DNA of 64,000 nt, taken from Mastigocoleus sp. MO_188.B34 (GTDB taxonomy: Bacteria > Cyanobacteriota > Cyanobacteriia > Cyanobacteriales > Nostocaceae). This document shows positions 14,581 to 24,115 of this stretch, in pieces. The position numbers were made by a program, and so were the translations under genes. The notes beneath the pieces were generated by a model. It was not told the origin of the DNA. It did no database searches and saw nothing but the letters and a program-made list of their open reading frames with translations. The stretch lies in contig NZ_JASJDK010000019.1 of assembly GCF_030065675.1 (NCBI RefSeq), positions 1 to 64,000 on the forward strand. Direction: 5' to 3'. How positions within the stretch are numbered: the stretch's first letter is position 1; the number at the start of each line of letters is the position of its first letter.

Positions 14581-16860
14581 TTACAACCAAAACTGGCGAT
14601 CGCCATCTAATGCACCAGGATAAATACCTTGTAACCTTCTATAAGCCATACGGTCAGAACCGAAAAGTGGAATGGGTAAACGCGGTTCCCTAAGAGAGCC
14701 ATGATGAAGTAAGGTGAGTTTGAGTGTCGTTTTAACTAAATCTTCAATTGATACTTGATGCCCTGCTTCGTGAATTTTCAAACGTAAGGGGAGTGGTAAA
14801 CCCATATTCTCAGATTTTAATTGTGTCGTTACTAAAATCACTTCACGAGCAGATAAGCGCAGTGCTAAACCTTTTGTAGGTGCTTTAATAACTTGTTGCT
14901 GCCAGTTATAAAGTCGAGGTATTCCAGACTTATAACATTCGACTAAGATAAACTCAGAACCAATTGCTTTACCCCACTCTTGTAAGTGTAAAGCTTCATT
15001 ACCACAAAAGCGTCCATCTCGGTAAATTAACACCTTTTTCCCTTTAAGTTTGGCTCTAGGAAGAAAATTCTCTAAGACTCTTGGCGGAATTTCTTCGCCT
15101 TCAATCAAAGCGTCTTCTAATTTATAGCCGTTAAACTCACCTTGTTTGCCGTAAAGTCGTAAACTAGCACAAGCATTCAAAGTTCCAGCAAGTTTCTTTT
15201 TAGAACCTCTAGAGATATCTAAACCAATGAAATAATCAGCAATTTTTAGTGGTTCAGCTAATACAAAAGGTAAGTTACCTAATTTCGCTAATATTCCGGG
15301 AATGACTTGATTGAGAAGATAGGTCGGTTGAACAGTTTTCAGGGTGTTTTCATAAATAATTTGGCTAGCAATTCCTCTTCGCAGTAAACGCGAATAAATT
15401 AAAGAATATAGACTACCACCTTGAGTATCATCGATACTGCGATCCTCTTTTGGCAAAAAGACCAGAACCATATCAGGATCTTTTTCCATCAAATCATCGA
15501 TATTTTCCTCGACTTTTGCTCTAGCTTCAATACTAGTTAAGTTTTCTAAAGATACTGACTTAATGTTTTCTTTTGGAATAAGACTTGTAAAACCATATCG
15601 TTTTAAACGTTGTTCAACTTCCTTTAAAAAAGAAAAAGCAACCTGAAAATCACCAACCTTCAAAGCAGCTATCCTAATTTTATCTGATGGGTGAATATAA
15701 TCTTTATGACGTCGGTAAACACCACCTTTGGAAAGACCCGTGAGTATTCTACTTTGAACCTCAGCGACATTTTTCCCAAATAGCAGCTTGGTTTCTGAAA
15801 GTTTAATTGGTGGTTGCCAAAATAATTGTGGATACTTGCGACTATTTATACTTTGTCCTATTTGAAATCCATAATGAGTTAGAACAGTATTTGCTTCTTT
15901 CTTGTGTAGAGCTAAAAGTTCTTTTCTTTCTTTATAAATAACTTTGGTTGCTTTAAGTAATTTACCGTAGTCTACCTCAAATCTAGAAGCCATTTCAGCT
16001 GTTACACAAGGACGTAAAGCAGCCATCGCGTAGTGAAATTGTTGCTTGTTTTTACCAAATTTTACAGCAACTACTGGTTGTTCGTCTGGTGCTTCTTCCA
16101 ATGCTTGTTTGCTAATTGCACCAGTTGCATCTTCTTTTAATTTTTCTCTATGTTCGCCAATGCTACCGACAATTCCAGTTATTGTAGCAAAACTGTTGCG
16201 TTCGATATCTCGAACTTTTAAACCAATTAACAACTGTTCAGGATTTTGTCTGTAGGGATGATTTTGATAAAACTCAGCTAAATTACTTTTATAGCTAAAA
16301 CTACTCTTAATTGTGATTGTTAAAGCGGGTTGCAAGCGGCTTTCTATTTCTATATTTTCAGCCCAAAAATCTGCTTCGCGCTTTACTTCTACCAACTTTT
16401 CAGATAAAGCAACGATCGACGAAAAAGGGCGAGTAATTTTTAAGATTCTAACAGCTAACTCAGCAAAAACAAAAGCTGTTAACTGTGGTTGACGTACCCA
16501 TTGAATTGAATAATCGCAGTCACCAATATCTTTTCTTAGTTCCTCACAAATTTCCGTAAGTGCTTCGCGCCATTCTTCCGGGCTAGGTATTACTTCATTA
16601 GGTTTAGCTAAAGCCCAGAAAAATCTATTGTGCCAGATAACAATTAGTTCGGGAAACTTTTGACAAAAACGCCAACTTAAACGATTACCAATTTCTTTAC
16701 CTACTTCAGGAGAAAGTCGAAAACATACTAAGTTGAGGTTTGAATTAGATTTTGAGTCAGATTTTGAATTATCTTTTAAGAAAACTAGTGGGAGAATCTC
16801 ACTTAAAAATATTTTATTTACGGCAGATTTTGGAGATGGTTGAGTAATAGCAACAGTCAT
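14581..16860 (-). CDS. ago: Long prokaryotic Argonaute nuclease
   Basis: A 759-aa protein whose C-terminal half is a PIWI domain of the RNase H fold. The catalytic tetrad appears intact: D548 in [10 protein letters not shown], a glutamate-finger candidate in LIEGEE (E587, E589 or E590), D615 in LIYRDGRF and D736 in [13 protein letters not shown]. The closing segment [14 protein letters not shown] and [13 protein letters not shown] is very like the Synechococcus elongatus Argonaute as I remember it. The length fits the long-A class (N, PAZ, MID, PIWI); PAZ cannot be confirmed by eye. Such enzymes use small DNA guides to cut DNA and act in plasmid or phage defence and in chromosome decatenation. 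It overlaps the Cas4-like gene upstream by 4 bases (ATGA), so translation is probably coupled. Confidence 0.95.
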
Positions 16861-17759
16861 GCAGCAACCTCAGCAATAGCAAATTCACAGATAGAACTAA
16901 AGGGACAAAATCGACAGCTAACACCAGGGTTTGGCGGAAATATATATCTGAAATCAGCAGAGTTTTTTCGATAACGTTGCAAATCCAGTTGATGTTGTTT
17001 TGCCAACCTAGACATTATTATTTGGAAAGATTCTACAGTTTCAGGTGTTGCTGTAATTGGTTTTGAGTGCTTGCAAGTTTCTAGGTTATAAAAAGAAGCT
17101 ACCGTCTTGTATCGTGGGTAAAGATATTTTGCAGCTAACAGATAAATATAAGCTTGTCTGCGATCAAAGTCAGTTTTACCAGTTTTGAAATCTAAAATAT
17201 GCAGTGTATTATCTTCTTCTATTAAAATACAGTCAATTGCTGCATATAAATTAAATAGATAATCACCCTGTTGAATTAAAATCGGTTTTGGGAAACCCTC
17301 ATCACCTCGACTTAATTTGATTACCTTCTTACCTGAAAGAATCGGATTTTTCAGATAATTCTTCAGAATTTGAGTTACCCTTTCGCGGACTAAATCTAAT
17401 TCTCGATCTAATCGCAAAATGATTGCTAACTGATCGATAGCATCTTTATCAGAAAACATTGAAGAGTCTTGATGGAATTCGTAAACTCCTTTTTGTGCTA
17501 AGAGCCCTATCCTTTGAGGTATGTTGTCTTGCTTTAAAAGTGCTGCAACTAGAGGTTCTCGTTTTCGCGCCTTAGCAAAACCTCTTTTCATATCGCAATG
17601 TAAATGTTCAAGTCCTACTGGGGGAGAGTGCAAAGATAATAGATTGTAGCTAGCGAAGTTCCAAATTTTTTTGGAGCAAACTTTTCTTGGATTAGATACC
17701 TGATGATTCATGGGGTAGAAGTTTTTTCTCACATCCAGTATATTGTTTATATTGCCCAT
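16857..17759 (-). CDS. Cas4/RecB-like PD-(D/E)XK nuclease paired with Argonaute
   Basis: A 300-aa nuclease if started at the ATG at 17759. Features of the Cas4 family are visible: a Cys in KVCSKKIW (C28), an acidic site AID, the core HILDFKTG (D-x-K, about residue 188), the QAYIYLL helix (QxxxY motif) and a C-terminal C-x2-C-x5-C ([10 protein letters not shown], about 281-290). The four cysteines would hold a 4Fe-4S cluster. The frame is open to 17909, but that would overlap the divergent XRE gene; a promoter match places the transcript start near 17778, so 17759 or the next ATG at 17711 is used. Neither has a Shine-Dalgarno. Cas4-like proteins trim DNA ends; here it may prepare or degrade DNA for Argonaute guide loading (inference). 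Confidence 0.9.
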
Positions 17760-17784
17760 GTTGACCAACTTAATCAACACAAAG

Positions 17785-17813
17785 ATTAAACTCGATGTCA
17801 ACACTAAAGTCAA
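17785..17813 (-). promoter_or_regulatory. Promoter of the nuclease-Argonaute operon
   Basis: Reading the minus strand, TTGACT (17813-17808) is separated by exactly 17 bases from TTTAAT (17790-17785), each one mismatch from the sigma-70 consensus. The predicted start near 17778 lies about 20 bases before the chosen ATG. It interleaves with the divergent promoter, so one bound regulator could cover both. Confidence 0.55.
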
Positions 17814-17826
17814 GGTAAAGTATGAT
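17798..17826 (+). promoter_or_regulatory. Promoter of the XRE-ImmA operon
   Basis: TCAACA (17798-17803), 17 bases, then TATGAT (17821-17826). The -10 is one mismatch from consensus and the -35 two. The leader would be short, with AAAAGGAAA before the ATG at 17850. The region 17740-17830 also contains repeated TTGACCA/TTGATTA/GTCAA-type half-sites that might serve as operators. Confidence 0.45.
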
Positions 17827-17849
17827 TCTTGGATTAAAAGGAAAAAACC

Positions 17850-18218
17850 ATGAGTCAGACCTTCGGTAAACTCATTCGTCAAGCTCGTAAGCAAAAAGAA
17901 TATAGTCAACGCGAATTAGCTAAGTTAGTGGGAGTAAATTACACATACTTATCTAAATTAGAGAATGACCACGCAGGATATCCTCCTAGTGAAGACGTTA
18001 TTGACTTGCTCGCAATTAATCTCGATTTAAGGGAACAAAAAGATGAATTAAGAAGACTTGCAGGAAGAATTACCCCAGATGATGCCAAAGTCTTTGAAGA
18101 CCTGGTAAAACAATATAAACAAATGCCTGCCTTGCTCCGTAGGATGCGCGATGAGCCAAAATTTGCACAGGAAGTATTACAAAAGACTACTCAGGATACT
18201 GAGGAGAAACAGAGTTGA
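17850..18218 (+). CDS. XRE-family HTH transcriptional regulator
   Basis: A 122-aa protein with an N-terminal XRE/Cro-type helix-turn-helix (residues 5-65; [20 protein letters not shown] followed by [10 protein letters not shown]), then a helical tail with acidic and basic charges ([20 protein letters not shown]). AAGGA precedes the ATG. It overlaps the ImmA-like gene by 4 bases and diverges from the Cas4-like/Argonaute operon. XRE-ImmA pairs in mobile elements and in Deinococcus (DdrO-IrrE) work as a repressor cleaved by its partner protease (established for those systems). By analogy this protein may repress the divergent nuclease operon, its own, or both. Confidence 0.92.
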
Positions 18219-18862
18219 ATGTCATTAAGTCATATAAGTTCTTACCTAAAGAACAAATAGAACGTCTGGCGCTAGACATTTTGAATCAGGTGCAAGCAAC
18301 ACGAAAGCGCCCCTTGAAAGGAAGATGTGTTGCTGAAACAGTTGCTGATTATTTAGATATAGGTGTTATTTGGCAAAGTATACCTCCTGATGATGAAGGG
18401 TATGTAGCGGCAATGATTTTTCCACTTCAAAAAGAAATCATTATTAACGATCAAATCCCAGAACTCGAAGGTGGTTTTGGGCAATCAACCATAGCTCACG
18501 AAATCGGACATTGGTTGCTTCATATTGACCAAAATGCTGTCGGTACATTCAAAGAAAGAATGAGTTCTGAAATAGGAATGACTATAGAACCGTTTTTATG
18601 TCGTAGTATTAACACTCAAAAAGAAATTGAATGGCAGGCTCAATATTTTGCTAGTTGTTTACTTATGCCTTTATTTAAATTAGAAGAAGCACGAAGAGGG
18701 CGTGACTTAACTAAATGGCGTCATTTGTATCCAATTGCAGATGAACTTGGGGTAACGATTTCTAATCTTACGCATCGCCTAAAAAGTCTTGGCTGGATTT
18801 ATATACCTAAAGGTTCCAAGCAAATTTATTTAGGTAAAGCTCTTTCAAATAACCACCAGTAA
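18215..18862 (+). CDS. ImmA/IrrE-type metallopeptidase
   Basis: A 215-aa protein of the ImmA/IrrE (DUF955) family. The zinc site is H95-E-I-G-H99 and the third ligand is the Glu in EIEWQAQYFASCLLMP, a typical arrangement for the family. Start choice: a TTG at 18215 overlapping the regulator's TGA, with GAGGAG at 18201-18206 eight bases before it; the nearby ATG at 18219 is in another frame. The C-terminal part (KWRHLYPIADELGVTISNLT) resembles the winged-helix-like tail seen in family members. It probably cleaves the XRE protein upstream when a stress or invasion signal is sensed; this is inferred from the pairing. Confidence 0.93.
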   Translation: MNVIKSYKFLPKEQIERLALDILNQVQATRKRPLKGRCVAETVADYLDIGVIWQSIPPDDEGYVAAMIFPLQKEIIINDQIPELEGGFGQSTIAHEIGHWLLHIDQNAVGTFKERMSSEIGMTIEPFLCRSINTQKEIEWQAQYFASCLLMPLFKLEEARRGRDLTKWRHLYPIADELGVTISNLTHRLKSLGWIYIPKGSKQIYLGKALSNNHQ

Positions 18863-19361: not shown

Positions 19362-19445
19362 TAGCGGATCCGTAAGGTAGCAGCTCCGGATCCGTAGGTA
19401 GCGCAGCTAGAGCCTGCGGCGTCGGCGAAGCCTCTAGCTATAGCG
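19362..19445 (+). repeat. G+C-rich dispersed repeat, copy 1
   Basis: Contains GGATCCGTAGGTAGCGCAGC at 19388, then an imperfect hairpin from AGCTAGAG (19405-19412) and CTCTAGCT (19432-19439) around CTGCGGCGTCGGCGAAG. Related copies lie at 21957-22020 and 22053-22132 in the same orientation. Its G+C content stands out from the AT-rich surroundings. Confidence 0.8.
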
Positions 19446-19730: not shown

Positions 19731-20381
19731 ATGTTTTCTATTTCGCTATTATCCAGAAAATATATAATTCTACATTTAACTTGGTTCGCTTTTTTCCTAT
19801 CGTTTTTAGTATGGTTTAGTTTTGCACCTTTTGTGCTCGAAGTTCACAACGATTTAAGTCTGACTTCGAAACAACTTAAAACCTTAGCTATTTGCAATCT
19901 AGCCCTAACGATACCAGCAAGAATCTTGATTGGGATGTTGTTAGACCGTTGGGGAGCGCGAATCACCTTTGCTGGAGTCCTAGTGTTTGCTGTAATTCCT
20001 TGCTTTATGACTGGATTTGCAACTAGTTTTCACCAACTTGTCTATAGCAGTTTGACTATGGGTGTAGTGGGTGCAGGTTTTGTGGTGGGAGTACGCATGG
20101 TTGCAGAATGTTTTCCACCCCAAGAGATTGGTATTGCTCAAGGAATATACGGTGGTTGGGGTAATTTTGGTGCTGGTGCAACATTTAGCATAGTTCCTTT
20201 AATCAAGCGGGAAATTACTGGACAAATTGCAGGTAATGTTGGTGCTTATGGGAATGTGGGTGGTGTACTTTTTCTAACTCTTTATAACTTTAGCGATACT
20301 CAAACCTTGTTTAACACTATGGCTATAGCGTTGATTTGTACAAGTTTATGTGTCTTTTTCCTCAAGGAACCTAATAATTAG
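19731..20381 (+). pseudogene. NarK/NrtP-type nitrate transporter with internal deletion
   Basis: A 216-aa membrane protein of the major facilitator superfamily, where a complete nitrate/nitrite permease has about 450-500 aa and 12 helices. Residues 1-148 match the N-terminal half of the family (LLDRWGAR loop, GVVGAGFVVGVRMVAECFPP, then GIYGGWGNFGAGA). The sequence then passes directly into what is normally the last quarter, VPLIKREITGQIAGNVGAYG and FFLKEP at the C-terminus. The reading frame is intact, so about 240 residues were lost in frame near 20163-20190, perhaps by recombination between two similar Gly-Ala-rich segments. The product is unlikely to transport. The nitric oxide synthase gene follows on the same strand. 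Confidence 0.75.
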
Positions 20382-20609
20382 TTTGCGATAAATTTATTCA
20401 TTATCAATTTATTTCCTACAAATTTATTAACTCTAAATCTAATCTATTAATCAATTTGAATATTTAAGTATTTGCTATTTAGCTGCTATTCGAGCAACAC
20501 CGGAAATAGTTAGTTGATAGTAGCCATATCCCCTGCATCATTACTCAGGATTCTTTGTAAATTTACTCCACATGTATTGATAAATAAACAAATATATTTT
20601 GCAGAAAAG

Positions 20610-21893
20610 ATGAATCAGAAAATAAGAGTTAAATCAATTATTGAACAATACCGTTATTTATTTCCTGCAAGTTTAAAAAACAATCAATTAAGTAAACAAT
20701 TAAAAACATCAAGTAAAATAAATCCAGATAAGATAAATTTAGCTCAAATAAACTCAAGCAAGATAAAATCAGTTCAAAACTCTATCATCTCTGAAGCTGC
20801 AGAATTCATCAAACTTTTCTATAAGGAAAACAATCTATCAATTGCAAATCTTGAGAAACGACTGATTGAAATATGTATTGAAGTCGAAAAAACAGGAACA
20901 TATCAACAAACTAAAGAAGAAATTACCTATGGTTCCAAAGTCGCTTGGCGAAATAGTTCGCGCTGCATAGGAAGAATATTTTGGCAGACATTAACCGTTC
21001 GTGACTTGAGACATTTGTCAACTGCAGAAGAAATCTTTCAGGCAATATTAGAACATATTCAGTTAGCAACAAATGGTGGCAAAATTAGACCGGTAATTTC
21101 AATTTTTCCAGCTAATCAACCAGGAAGATCAGGTATTCGGATTTGGAATCCTTTACTAATCCGCTATGCAGGTTACGAACAGCCTGATGGTACAATTATC
21201 GGCGATCCAGCACAACTCGAACTTACAAAAATCTGTCAGAGATTGGGATGGGAAAGTAAAGGTACTCCATTCGATATTTTGCCATTAATTATTCAAATAC
21301 CAGGAGAAAATCCACAATTATTTGAAATTCCTCAAGACATAGTTTTAGAAGTTCCAATTACCCATCCCGAATTACCTTGGTTTGCAGATTTAGGTTTAAA
21401 ATGGCATGCTTTACCTTGTGTTTCTAGTCATTGTTTAGAAATTGGTGGAGTGTCATATTCTGCAGCACCATTTAATGGTTGGTATATGAGTACGGAAATC
21501 GCTTCCCGCAACTTTGGTGATGCTCATCGCTACAATTTACTTCCCATAATTGCTGAAAAGTTAGGATTGGATACTCGTTCTAAATTATCCTTATGGAAAG
21601 ACAGAGCATTAATTGAATTGAATACCGCTGTGTTACATTCATTTAGTAATAGTGGCATTTTAATGGTCGATCATCATACAGCTTCAGAGCAATTCATGAT
21701 GCATTGTAAGCGCGAAGCTAGTGAAGGTAGAACTGTTCCTGCTGATTGGGGCTGGATTATTCCACCAATTTCAGCTTCAGCAACCAAAGTATTTCATCAA
21801 GAATTTGAAAATATACTTTTAAAACCTAATTTATTTCCCCAACCCGAACCTTGGAAAAATTTAGGAGCGCGAGGAAAATGTCCATTTCATTAG
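20610..21893 (+). CDS. Nitric oxide synthase, oxygenase domain protein
   Basis: A 427-aa protein with the full NOS oxygenase fold and no reductase domain. The heme-ligating cysteine lies in WRNSSRCIGR (C119 from this start). Other signatures: GRSGIRIWNPLLIRYAGYEQ, FNGWYMSTEIASRNFGD with the arginine-binding Glu, DHHTASEQFMMHC, and DWGWIIPPISAS with the pterin-stacking Trp region. NOS converts L-arginine to citrulline and NO; reductase partners would be supplied in trans, as for Bacillus NOS. I prefer the ATG at 20610; an in-frame TTG at 20514 would add 32 residues. Residues about 20-60 are a Ser/Lys/Asn-rich linker absent from Bacillus enzymes. NOS is uncommon in cyanobacteria, so horizontal gain is plausible. 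Confidence 0.95.
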   Translation: MNQKIRVKSIIEQYRYLFPASLKNNQLSKQLKTSSKINPDKINLAQINSSKIKSVQNSIISEAAEFIKLFYKENNLSIANLEKRLIEICIEVEKTGTYQQTKEEITYGSKVAWRNSSRCIGRIFWQTLTVRDLRHLSTAEEIFQAILEHIQLATNGGKIRPVISIFPANQPGRSGIRIWNPLLIRYAGYEQPDGTIIGDPAQLELTKICQRLGWESKGTPFDILPLIIQIPGENPQLFEIPQDIVLEVPITHPELPWFADLGLKWHALPCVSSHCLEIGGVSYSAAPFNGWYMSTEIASRNFGDAHRYNLLPIIAEKLGLDTRSKLSLWKDRALIELNTAVLHSFSNSGILMVDHHTASEQFMMHCKREASEGRTVPADWGWIIPPISASATKVFHQEFENILLKPNLFPQPEPWKNLGARGKCPFH

Positions 21894-21956: not shown

Positions 21957-22135
21957 CCGGATCCGTAGGTAGCGCAGCTAGAGGCAGCCTGCGACGTCGG
22001 CGAAGCCTCTAGGTATTGCGGGGGGCGCGTAGCTAGCGTAAGCGTACCGGACGGATCCGTAGGTAGCAGTTCCGTAGGTAGCGCAGCTATAGCTAGAGCC
22101 TGCGGCGTCGGCGAAGCCTCTAGGTATTGCGCACA
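21957..22135 (+). repeat. G+C-rich dispersed repeat, copies 2 and 3
   Basis: Two further copies of the element at 19362: one at 21957-22020 and one at 22053-22132, both containing GGATCCGTAGGTAGC, a CTGCG-CGTCGGCGAAGCCTCTAGG core and TATTGCG. The spacer between them has GCGTAGCTAGCGTAAGCGTACC-like palindromic filler. Flanked by STRR-like filler (AGTAATGAGTAATG). Together with copy 1 it brackets the transporter relic and NOS gene. Confidence 0.8.
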
Positions 22136-22196: not shown

Positions 22197-23237
22197 TTAA
22201 TATCTTATTTCTTCTCTTCGAAAACCAGAGTAACCACCTGTCGTAAACCAATATTCCCAACTTCCTCCAGAAGCTGTTAACCAGTTATTCAAATCGAATA
22301 AACCACTTCCTTCAGGGGTTCCAGAAATTCTATAAACTTTAATTGCTCGTCCATAATTATCCCAAATTAAAGGCGAACCGGGTTGTATTTGTTCGGGGAA
22401 AGCACCATTAGTTTGTAAAAAGTAAGCATCTTGTCCCCGGTCAGAACCATTCCCAAAAACCCGAGCAATTCCCTTTTCATCAATACCTACAAATGCACCT
22501 TCTTCTAAACCAATACCATAAACTTTATGATTCTCAGCCACCATAATTCGAGCCATTAACCCAAAGATTCTTCCATACCTTGTTTCAGGATGGCGATCGT
22601 TACGTCTATCTAAATGAGTATCAGTAATAACATGTTTGAGATAAGGAACTTGAAGAAAATCACTGTGATAAATGTCTTTAGTATTGGTATGGAAAGGATC
22701 GTTCAAAATTTCTGAACTTATCAACCCTTGTCGAGAAGGTGCATAATAATAATCTCCTAAAATCGCCATCCCGGCACTGGTTCCAGCAACAGGAATTTTT
22801 TTATGATTAATTAAATAGTTAATAGCATCTTCTGTTGCTGTTCCTTCCCAGTAATCTTCATATTCATTCTGATCTCCACCAGCAAAGAATAAAGCATCAG
22901 CATTTTTAATATATTCCACTACATCAGGATTATTTGCTGCTTCTCGACTATCAATAGAAAGTTCTGCTGCAGAATTGATTAACTGACTATAATTATCCGC
23001 TACCCACTGGGCTTGTCTACCAATTCCCCTGCAACGTAAAACTAAATAATCCCCTAGATCGGATTGTTTCAGAAACCATTGAGTCGCAGCATCTTCTCCT
23101 ACAGTTCCTCCTTCTGCACCACCAATTAAAAGAATGGCAGGTTTTTGAGCAGAAATCTTAACTTTTCCATACTCTAAAAAATATTCATAGTTTTTACTAT
23201 CGTCTGTTTGTCTAAAATCGGAGATTTTTCTTGTCAT
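22197..23237 (-). CDS. Cyanophycinase-like peptidase (S51 family)
   Basis: A 346-aa protein of the S51 / type-1 glutamine-amidotransferase-like fold. The nucleophile serine lies in VAGTSAGMAILGD, the preceding segment ADALFFAGGDQNEYEDYW fits the family, and DTHLDRRNDRHPETRYGRIFG corresponds to the cyanophycinase histidine region. Cyanophycinase breaks the storage polymer cyanophycin into Asp-Arg dipeptides. The C-terminus is longer than CphB and ends with WEYWFTTGGYSGFRREEIRY, so it may act on another peptide. I start at the ATG at 23237 (AAGG about 9 bases ahead); an upstream GTG at 23297 would add 20 residues. No export signal is visible. It stands alone. Confidence 0.82.
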   Translation of the reverse strand: MTRKISDFRQTDDSKNYEYFLEYGKVKISAQKPAILLIGGAEGGTVGEDAATQWFLKQSDLGDYLVLRCRGIGRQAQWVADNYSQLINSAAELSIDSREAANNPDVVEYIKNADALFFAGGDQNEYEDYWEGTATEDAINYLINHKKIPVAGTSAGMAILGDYYYAPSRQGLISSEILNDPFHTNTKDIYHSDFLQVPYLKHVITDTHLDRRNDRHPETRYGRIFGLMARIMVAENHKVYGIGLEEGAFVGIDEKGIARVFGNGSDRGQDAYFLQTNGAFPEQIQPGSPLIWDNYGRAIKVYRISGTPEGSGLFDLNNWLTASGGSWEYWFTTGGYSGFRREEIRY

Positions 23238-24115
23238 AAACTGGTTACCTTGACTTCTCGTAAATAACACTTTTGTGAAATTACTGCATAGCAACACTTC
23301 CTACCGGTCAATCAATGTTTTGGCAAAGTACCAAGGATTGACCTTAAAGGATAGTAGAAGCTGATAAATAAATTAATGATTTGTAATGTTTTATACTTTT
23401 AATGACGACATGTATTTTCAAACTATTATTCTTAGTACTTGCTGACTTTTGAATCTCTATAAATCCACTGGAAAAGGAGAATATGAAAAGATTTACACCT
23501 TTAGTAATTTGGATTTAAAAGGTAGAACTTAGCTTGAATACATACCCTATTTTTGTTTTCTGCGATTTAATTCCATTCCATTTTTTACTATTTCTGTTTT
23601 TTGATTTCTGTTCAATTTATCAACTATGTAGGGAGTTAATTGTTCGTCGTTACACTTTATTAAAATGCGATTGCTAGGCAGAGAGAGATATCTTTCAGGT
23701 ATATTGCTTTGCACGCACTTACAGCGAACACGCGGAACGCCTCTTAGAGGTTTATCGTTGTTTTGTATGTTCTTTTCCTAAAGGAGAAATAACATTGGCT
23801 ACATAAACTTAAAAACTAGTTAAAACATATATAGTATCTGTTTACTTATAGCTGCAAATCCGCAAAAATAGCTATGTATAAAAATATAATCAGTAGAGCT
23901 TTAATTCAATATCGCATTAGTTTAGTTAACGTTCTTGTTGCATCACAAGAAAATGTCGGGTATAGAAGGGTAATTGGTAGCGATCGCTAATTTATAGGAC
24001 AAAACCAACTGATGCAATTTAATTAATATTAACCATGATGGTGAAAGTGATGCAAAAATCTCAGCCCATTCAACTTTTATTGTAGTAATTTAAACAGATG
24101 TGAGGAGAAGCAGCT
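23238..24115. other. Intergenic region between two minus-strand genes
   Basis: About 880 bp, no supported gene. A strong AAAAGGAGA at 23473-23481 precedes an ATG at 23483, but the frame closes after 11 codons (MKRFTPLVIWI), which could be a decayed gene start or a leader peptide. A HIP1 site lies at 23980-23987. Confidence 0.5.

Follow-up and report, generated by a model that had tools for sequence, protein, structure and literature searches.

The window, a 64,000-nucleotide stretch of the genome of Mastigocoleus sp. MO_188.B34, carries a genuine, intact gene for a stand-alone nitric oxide synthase (NOS) oxygenase. Enzymes of this kind have been described before, and the gene lies downstream of what is left of a NarK/NrtP-family nitrate/nitrite transporter gene. 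The reading favoured here is that of a functional oxygenase that takes its electrons from flavodoxin or ferredoxin and comes from a clade in which NOS would be coupled to nitrate/nitrite transport and whose transport partner has been lost in this strain; we put its chance of being correct slightly above even. The evidence is taken from the gene itself, from its neighbours in related genomes, from the residues of the active site and from the wider distribution of NOS.

The NOS oxygenase gene

The gene and its N-terminal part were delimited as follows.

20610..21893, + strand: stand-alone NOS oxygenase gene, 427 aa (PF02898 at 554 bits, fold Z 47, dN/dS 0.23)
20610..20777, + strand: N-terminal extension, a conserved helix and then a disordered K/S/N-rich linker (model pLDDT, dN/dS)

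The open reading frame was located on the + strand, opening at 20514 (TTG) and ending with the stop at 21893. Its match to Pfam NO_synthase covered residues 57-416 of the protein and positions 3-362 of the 362 in the profile, and no fused reductase or globin was found in the 427 aa. The AlphaFold model (mean pLDDT 90) was superposed on B. subtilis NOS with a Z of 47.2 and an rmsd of 1.2 Å over 361 residues. An earlier sequence-only reading, which had proposed a stand-alone NOS oxygenase lacking a fused reductase, was thus borne out. A single NOS copy was found by whole-genome search of the 7.48-Mb genome. Location on a plasmid or phage was unsupported: the contig looks chromosomal by eye, and searches of phage records returned Staphylococcus matches only.

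Translation probably starts at the ATG at 20610, because the stretch just 5' of it differs from that of the congener G461 by a 2-nt indel and by codon changes of non-coding character (1 synonymous, 14 non-synonymous), and in the same comparison codons 1-24 (dN/dS 0.20) and the NOS domain (dN/dS 0.23) are under purifying selection. The TTG at 20514 was rejected as a start on the same grounds. The Lys/Ser/Asn-rich N-terminal extension, earlier described as unusual, was resolved into two parts. The K/S/N-rich part is a fast-changing linker, with residues 25-36 below a pLDDT of 50, and the conserved first 24 codons include a helix at residues 2-13. Over all 56 codons of the extension dN/dS was 1.16; the conserved helical part spans about 20 residues, and the linker is free to change.

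Two cyanobacterial NOS clusters were distinguished by Correa-Aragunde et al. (2018; PMC6104048), cluster I being oxygenase-only and cluster II globin-NOS-reductase, and Mastigocoleus testarum was listed there among the NOS-bearing species. The novelty implied by the sequence-only reading for a stand-alone cyanobacterial NOS therefore falls away. By description, the window NOS resembles cluster I, a stand-alone oxygenase of filamentous cyanobacteria. The text on that cluster makes no mention of a porter neighbour, of pocket substitutions or of a CP tail, which the window has, the porter as a remnant.

Pairing of NOS with a NarK/NrtP porter

The following gene remnant lies upstream of NOS, in the same direction.

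19731..20381, + strand: NarK/NrtP-family nitrate/nitrite transporter remnant, 216-aa ORF (184 bits to TIGR00886)

Neither this remnant nor the C-terminal CPFH tail of NOS had been noticed in the sequence-only reading. The remnant retains residues 1-150 and 416-486 of the congener's intact gene, and an in-frame deletion of 807 bp (269 codons) was found relative to that gene, with its joint near 20168-20180, within the short repeat TGGTGC[TG]GGTGCA. The remnant scores under the TIGR00886 cut-off of 311.7 bits, which is exceeded by the intact porters of G461 (336 bits) and G376 (348 bits); the porter of the G547 type (281.5 bits) also falls below it and matches NarU-type models. One other NrtP was found in the window genome, 54% identical to the linked porter of the congener. 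No NtcA box (GTAN8TAC) was found upstream of NrtP or NOS in the window. A dispersed GC-rich repeat flanks the porter remnant and NOS (19415-19435, 21990-22010 and 22101-22121); it has 34 copies in the genome with at most one mismatch, and a reversed control gave none.

A NarK/NrtP porter adjoins NOS in 9 of the 11 genomes of the window's cyanobacterial clade, the window remnant being counted. The pairing was first noticed in a sample of the family, and G679, G688 and G728 were added later by an order-level sample. Intact porters stand next to NOS in G461, G376, G450 and G434, the last three with a GAF gene between porter and NOS, 17-18 bp before NOS. A different porter, of the NarK/NarU type, follows NOS by 38 bp in G547; porter and NOS overlap in G679, which has two copies; the gap is 6 bp in G688; and the order in G728 is NarK/NarU-type porter, GAF, NOS. 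The spacing between the pair ranges from an overlap to 38 bp, or only the GAF gene intervenes, and is about 230 bp in the congener and the window. In the tree, the NOS-linked NrtPs separate (86/100) from the housekeeping NrtPs that the same genomes carry. The GAF neighbour was considered as a nitrate sensor of the NreA type and rejected, since no NreA match was obtained among solved structures and the best match was a plant bHLH-type domain.

The two remaining genomes have no porter beside NOS. A free globin gene follows NOS by 111 bp in G592 (L162:10889-11536), at the place where relatives carry the porter, and neither porter nor globin was found beside NOS in G539. In 80 NOS loci of other bacteria, most of them with 10-kb flanks, the porter protein queries used for the clade found no porter, and porters were also absent beside the other cyanobacterial NOS classes examined. 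No report of a NOS/nitrate-transporter pair was found in the open-access literature, and the pairing in this clade appears to be new.

The porter might be incidental and functionally unrelated to NOS, the window gene then encoding a common Bacillus-like NOS that serves in stress protection or signalling. We regard this as rather unlikely: the pair is kept in relatives whose surroundings otherwise share no gene with the window, the congener excepted, two different porter subfamilies occupy the NOS-adjacent place, and no such porter accompanies other bacterial NOSs. The reading draws on the fold and catalytic residues, which are as in Bacillus NOS, on the lack of a porter in G539 and on the window itself, where NOS still looks selected beside a broken porter. 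Functional coupling of NOS and porter, as we favour it, is suggested by one line of evidence, the gene order. Such coupling is not essential, because the porter is broken in the window genome and absent in G539.

Active site and C-terminal tail

Residues were numbered in the window NOS in parallel to iNOS, the offset being constant (C194/C119, E371/E296), and the active site was compared across 52 aligned NOSs.

20964..20966, + strand: heme-ligand Cys119 (iNOS C194), invariant in 52/52 aligned NOSs
21153..21155, + strand: Leu182 at the iNOS Gln257 position, substrate pocket (Gln in 47/52)
21429..21431, + strand: His274 at the iNOS Met349 position, substrate pocket (Met in 45/52)
21495..21497, + strand: Glu296, binding of the arginine guanidinium (iNOS E371), invariant in 52/52
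21879..21890, + strand: C-terminal CPFH tail, heme-regulatory-motif-like (motif outside the domain in 22/75 NOSs)

Cys119, Glu296, Trp291, Tyr292, Arg300, Asn301, Arg307, Trp380, Trp382 and Phe395 are kept in the window NOS. Among the aligned proteins, Trp291, Tyr292, Arg300 and Trp380 are invariant along with Cys119 and Glu296; Trp382 and Phe395 are not. The sequence-only reading had taken all main NOS signatures to be intact, which holds for the heme-ligating Cys and the Glu that binds arginine and fails at the Gln257 and Met349 positions, now Leu and His. Substituted arginine contacts, which that reading had regarded as telling against its assignment, are therefore present in part (Leu182 and His274), alongside the retained Cys119 and Glu296. 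Gln257 of iNOS contacts the amino-acid end of arginine. The full arginine-pocket set with Gln257 and Met349, which is common and perhaps not strictly defining, is thus incomplete here. Both are active-pocket residues of iNOS (PMC3472740).

The combination of Leu at the first position and His at the second is confined to the window NOS and its two closest relatives, those of G461 and G539; position 349 is Trp elsewhere in the clade and Lys in G592. No earlier description of the two changes was found, and they could weaken or change substrate binding. It is improbable that the substrate itself has changed, with another guanidine compound or N-hydroxyarginine preferred over L-arginine. The joint replacement, at the amino-acid end of the pocket, and the Trp or Lys at 349 in the rest of the clade would fit such a shift; Glu296, Trp291, Tyr292, Asn301 and Arg307 are kept, however, and the Gln257 position is also Leu in EF-hand-type cyanobacterial NOS.

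Like the mammalian enzymes, the window NOS has Val as its gate residue, which contradicts the statement that all bacterial NOSs have Ile there (PMC6104048). Val at the gate was rejected as a unique feature, being scattered among other NOSs in the alignment, and His at the Tyr341 position was rejected as a cyanobacterial novelty, being common in Actinomycetota and Ktedonobacter.

The window NOS ends in ARGKCPFH, and its last residues are poorly ordered in the model (pLDDT 55). We take this CPFH tail to resemble the heme-regulatory CP motif. Of 75 non-redundant NOSs, 22 carry the pattern CP[FYVIWLM]x0-2H outside the NOS domain; the number expected from composition-preserving shuffles is 0.24. 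The pattern is present in NOSs of Cyanobacteriota, Actinomycetota, Bacteroidota and Paenibacillus; in Polyangium and a Rokubacterium it lies directly N-terminal to the domain. No report of a CP motif in bacterial NOS was found in the open-access literature. The recurring CP-x-x-His tail would offer a testable handle on heme delivery to, or regulation of, bacterial NOS.

The window NOS is like the Bacillus and Geobacillus enzymes (1m7v, 2flq) in being oxygenase only and in its fold (Z 46-47), heme Cys, Glu and pterin residues. It differs from them in sequence (about 50% identity), in the Gln257, Met349 and gate Ile that they have, and in its CPFH tail, which is absent from the Bacillus and Anoxybacillus relatives examined. 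The Ktedonobacter NOSs (L046, L048) are the nearest non-cyanobacterial relatives, at 58% identity (tree support 96/89 and 93/93). They share His at the Tyr341 position, whereas they keep Gln257 and Met349 and have no NarK/NrtP porter within 10 kb.

Distribution, electron supply and proposed role

Matches to NOS of any kind were found in 49 of the 217 genomes of the window's family, 14 full-length stand-alone genes among them, in agreement with the earlier description of NOS as sporadic in cyanobacteria. In the trees, the window NOS falls among the stand-alone enzymes of bacteria and is separate from mammalian NOS and the SyNOS type. Its clade is placed close to Ktedonobacter (Chloroflexota), and a second clade of stand-alone cyanobacterial NOS is placed close to Actinomycetota. 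Two separate origins of stand-alone cyanobacterial NOS, as the trees suggest, were not adopted, since a single clade was not rejected (p-AU 0.22).

Two fused cyanobacterial classes stand elsewhere in the tree. One is the six-domain SyNOS type; in the other, EF-hands, a BFD-like 2Fe-2S domain and an FNR-like reductase precede the NOS domain. The latter was met in L134 (7097-10759), L164, L165, L135 and L137, with domains scanned in L134 and L164; several of these proteins have Leu at Gln257 and Phe at Trp366.

Stop-bearing or partial NOS matches are frequent in cyanobacteria (L010/L018/L020 in G131; also G403, G405, G420, G453, G493 and G557), which suggests repeated loss. The window gene might itself be decaying, on its way to loss with the porter already broken. 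The porter deletion and the many fragments and stop-bearing copies in related genomes would agree with this, but an open frame, a complete set of catalytic residues and a dN/dS of 0.23 against the congener, an average that includes time before the deletion, make it very unlikely.

The second stand-alone clade (L143, L133, L140, L141, L047) lies within a conserved gene cluster of SDR, NOS, SDR, desaturase, aminotransferase, SRPBCC, GNAT and acyl-CoA dehydrogenase genes. In Nostoc sp. C052 this cluster is carried by a conjugative plasmid (pC052_E), and parts of it recur beside Streptomyces NOS (L050, L056, L065). That the window NOS likewise supplies NO for natural-product biosynthesis, by analogy with the SDR/NOS/SDR/desaturase/aminotransferase cluster of pC052_E, L133, L140, L141 and L047, is scarcely credible, as none of those cluster genes lies near it and the genes around it include the porter remnant, an S51 peptidase and an argonaute pair.

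SyNOS of Synechococcus PCC 7335, a globin-NOS-diflavin reductase on a distant branch, is unlike the single-domain window NOS, and has been reported to mobilise arginine nitrogen to nitrate (PMC6104048, PMC12922734). Searches of the window genome returned no diflavin reductase (FAD_binding_1) and no free globin (PF00042) that could act as NO dioxygenase. Four matches to truncated globins were found elsewhere in the genome, as were flavodoxin-like and PTPS-family genes. Because no diflavin reductase was found, the electron donor is likely a general flavodoxin or ferredoxin together with ferredoxin-NADP reductase.

In the mechanism we favour, the window NOS would be a catalytically competent homodimer converting L-arginine to NO and citrulline with electrons from that source. 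The NO would pass to nitrite or nitrate, through O2 or a globin, and the dedicated porter with which NOS is normally paired in the clade would move nitrite/nitrate across the membrane, in a direction on which gene order is silent. NOS would therefore link arginine nitrogen to the nitrate/nitrite pool. As the linked porter is broken in the window strain, NOS would work there without it or depend on the other NrtP that the genome encodes.

A broader proposal, offered tentatively as possible though not likely, is that the porter (with or without GAF) and a NOS with a retuned pocket form a widespread unit that turns arginine nitrogen into nitrite/nitrate for movement across the membrane. Such a unit would correspond to SyNOS, with a coupled porter where SyNOS has a globin of its own. 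The conserved porter pair gives a direct and cheap test of the role of a stand-alone NOS, and of the fate of its NO, in oxygen-evolving cells.

Other genes were noted around the window NOS. A class II prokaryotic argonaute (1228 bits) adjoins an argonaute-associated Cas4-like nuclease (455 bits) at 14581-17909 on the - strand, a defence-type pair also present in G461 at 70-75% identity. Directly beside it, at 17850-18862 on the + strand, lies a helix-turn-helix and M78 (IrrE-like) peptidase pair with capH/capP-like matches. On the other side of NOS, at 22197-23297 on the - strand, an S51 peptidase was found with a weak cyanophycinase match (50 bits, cut-off 126.6). It is kept beside NOS in G461 (93% identity, dN/dS 0.09), and a link to arginine storage is possible.
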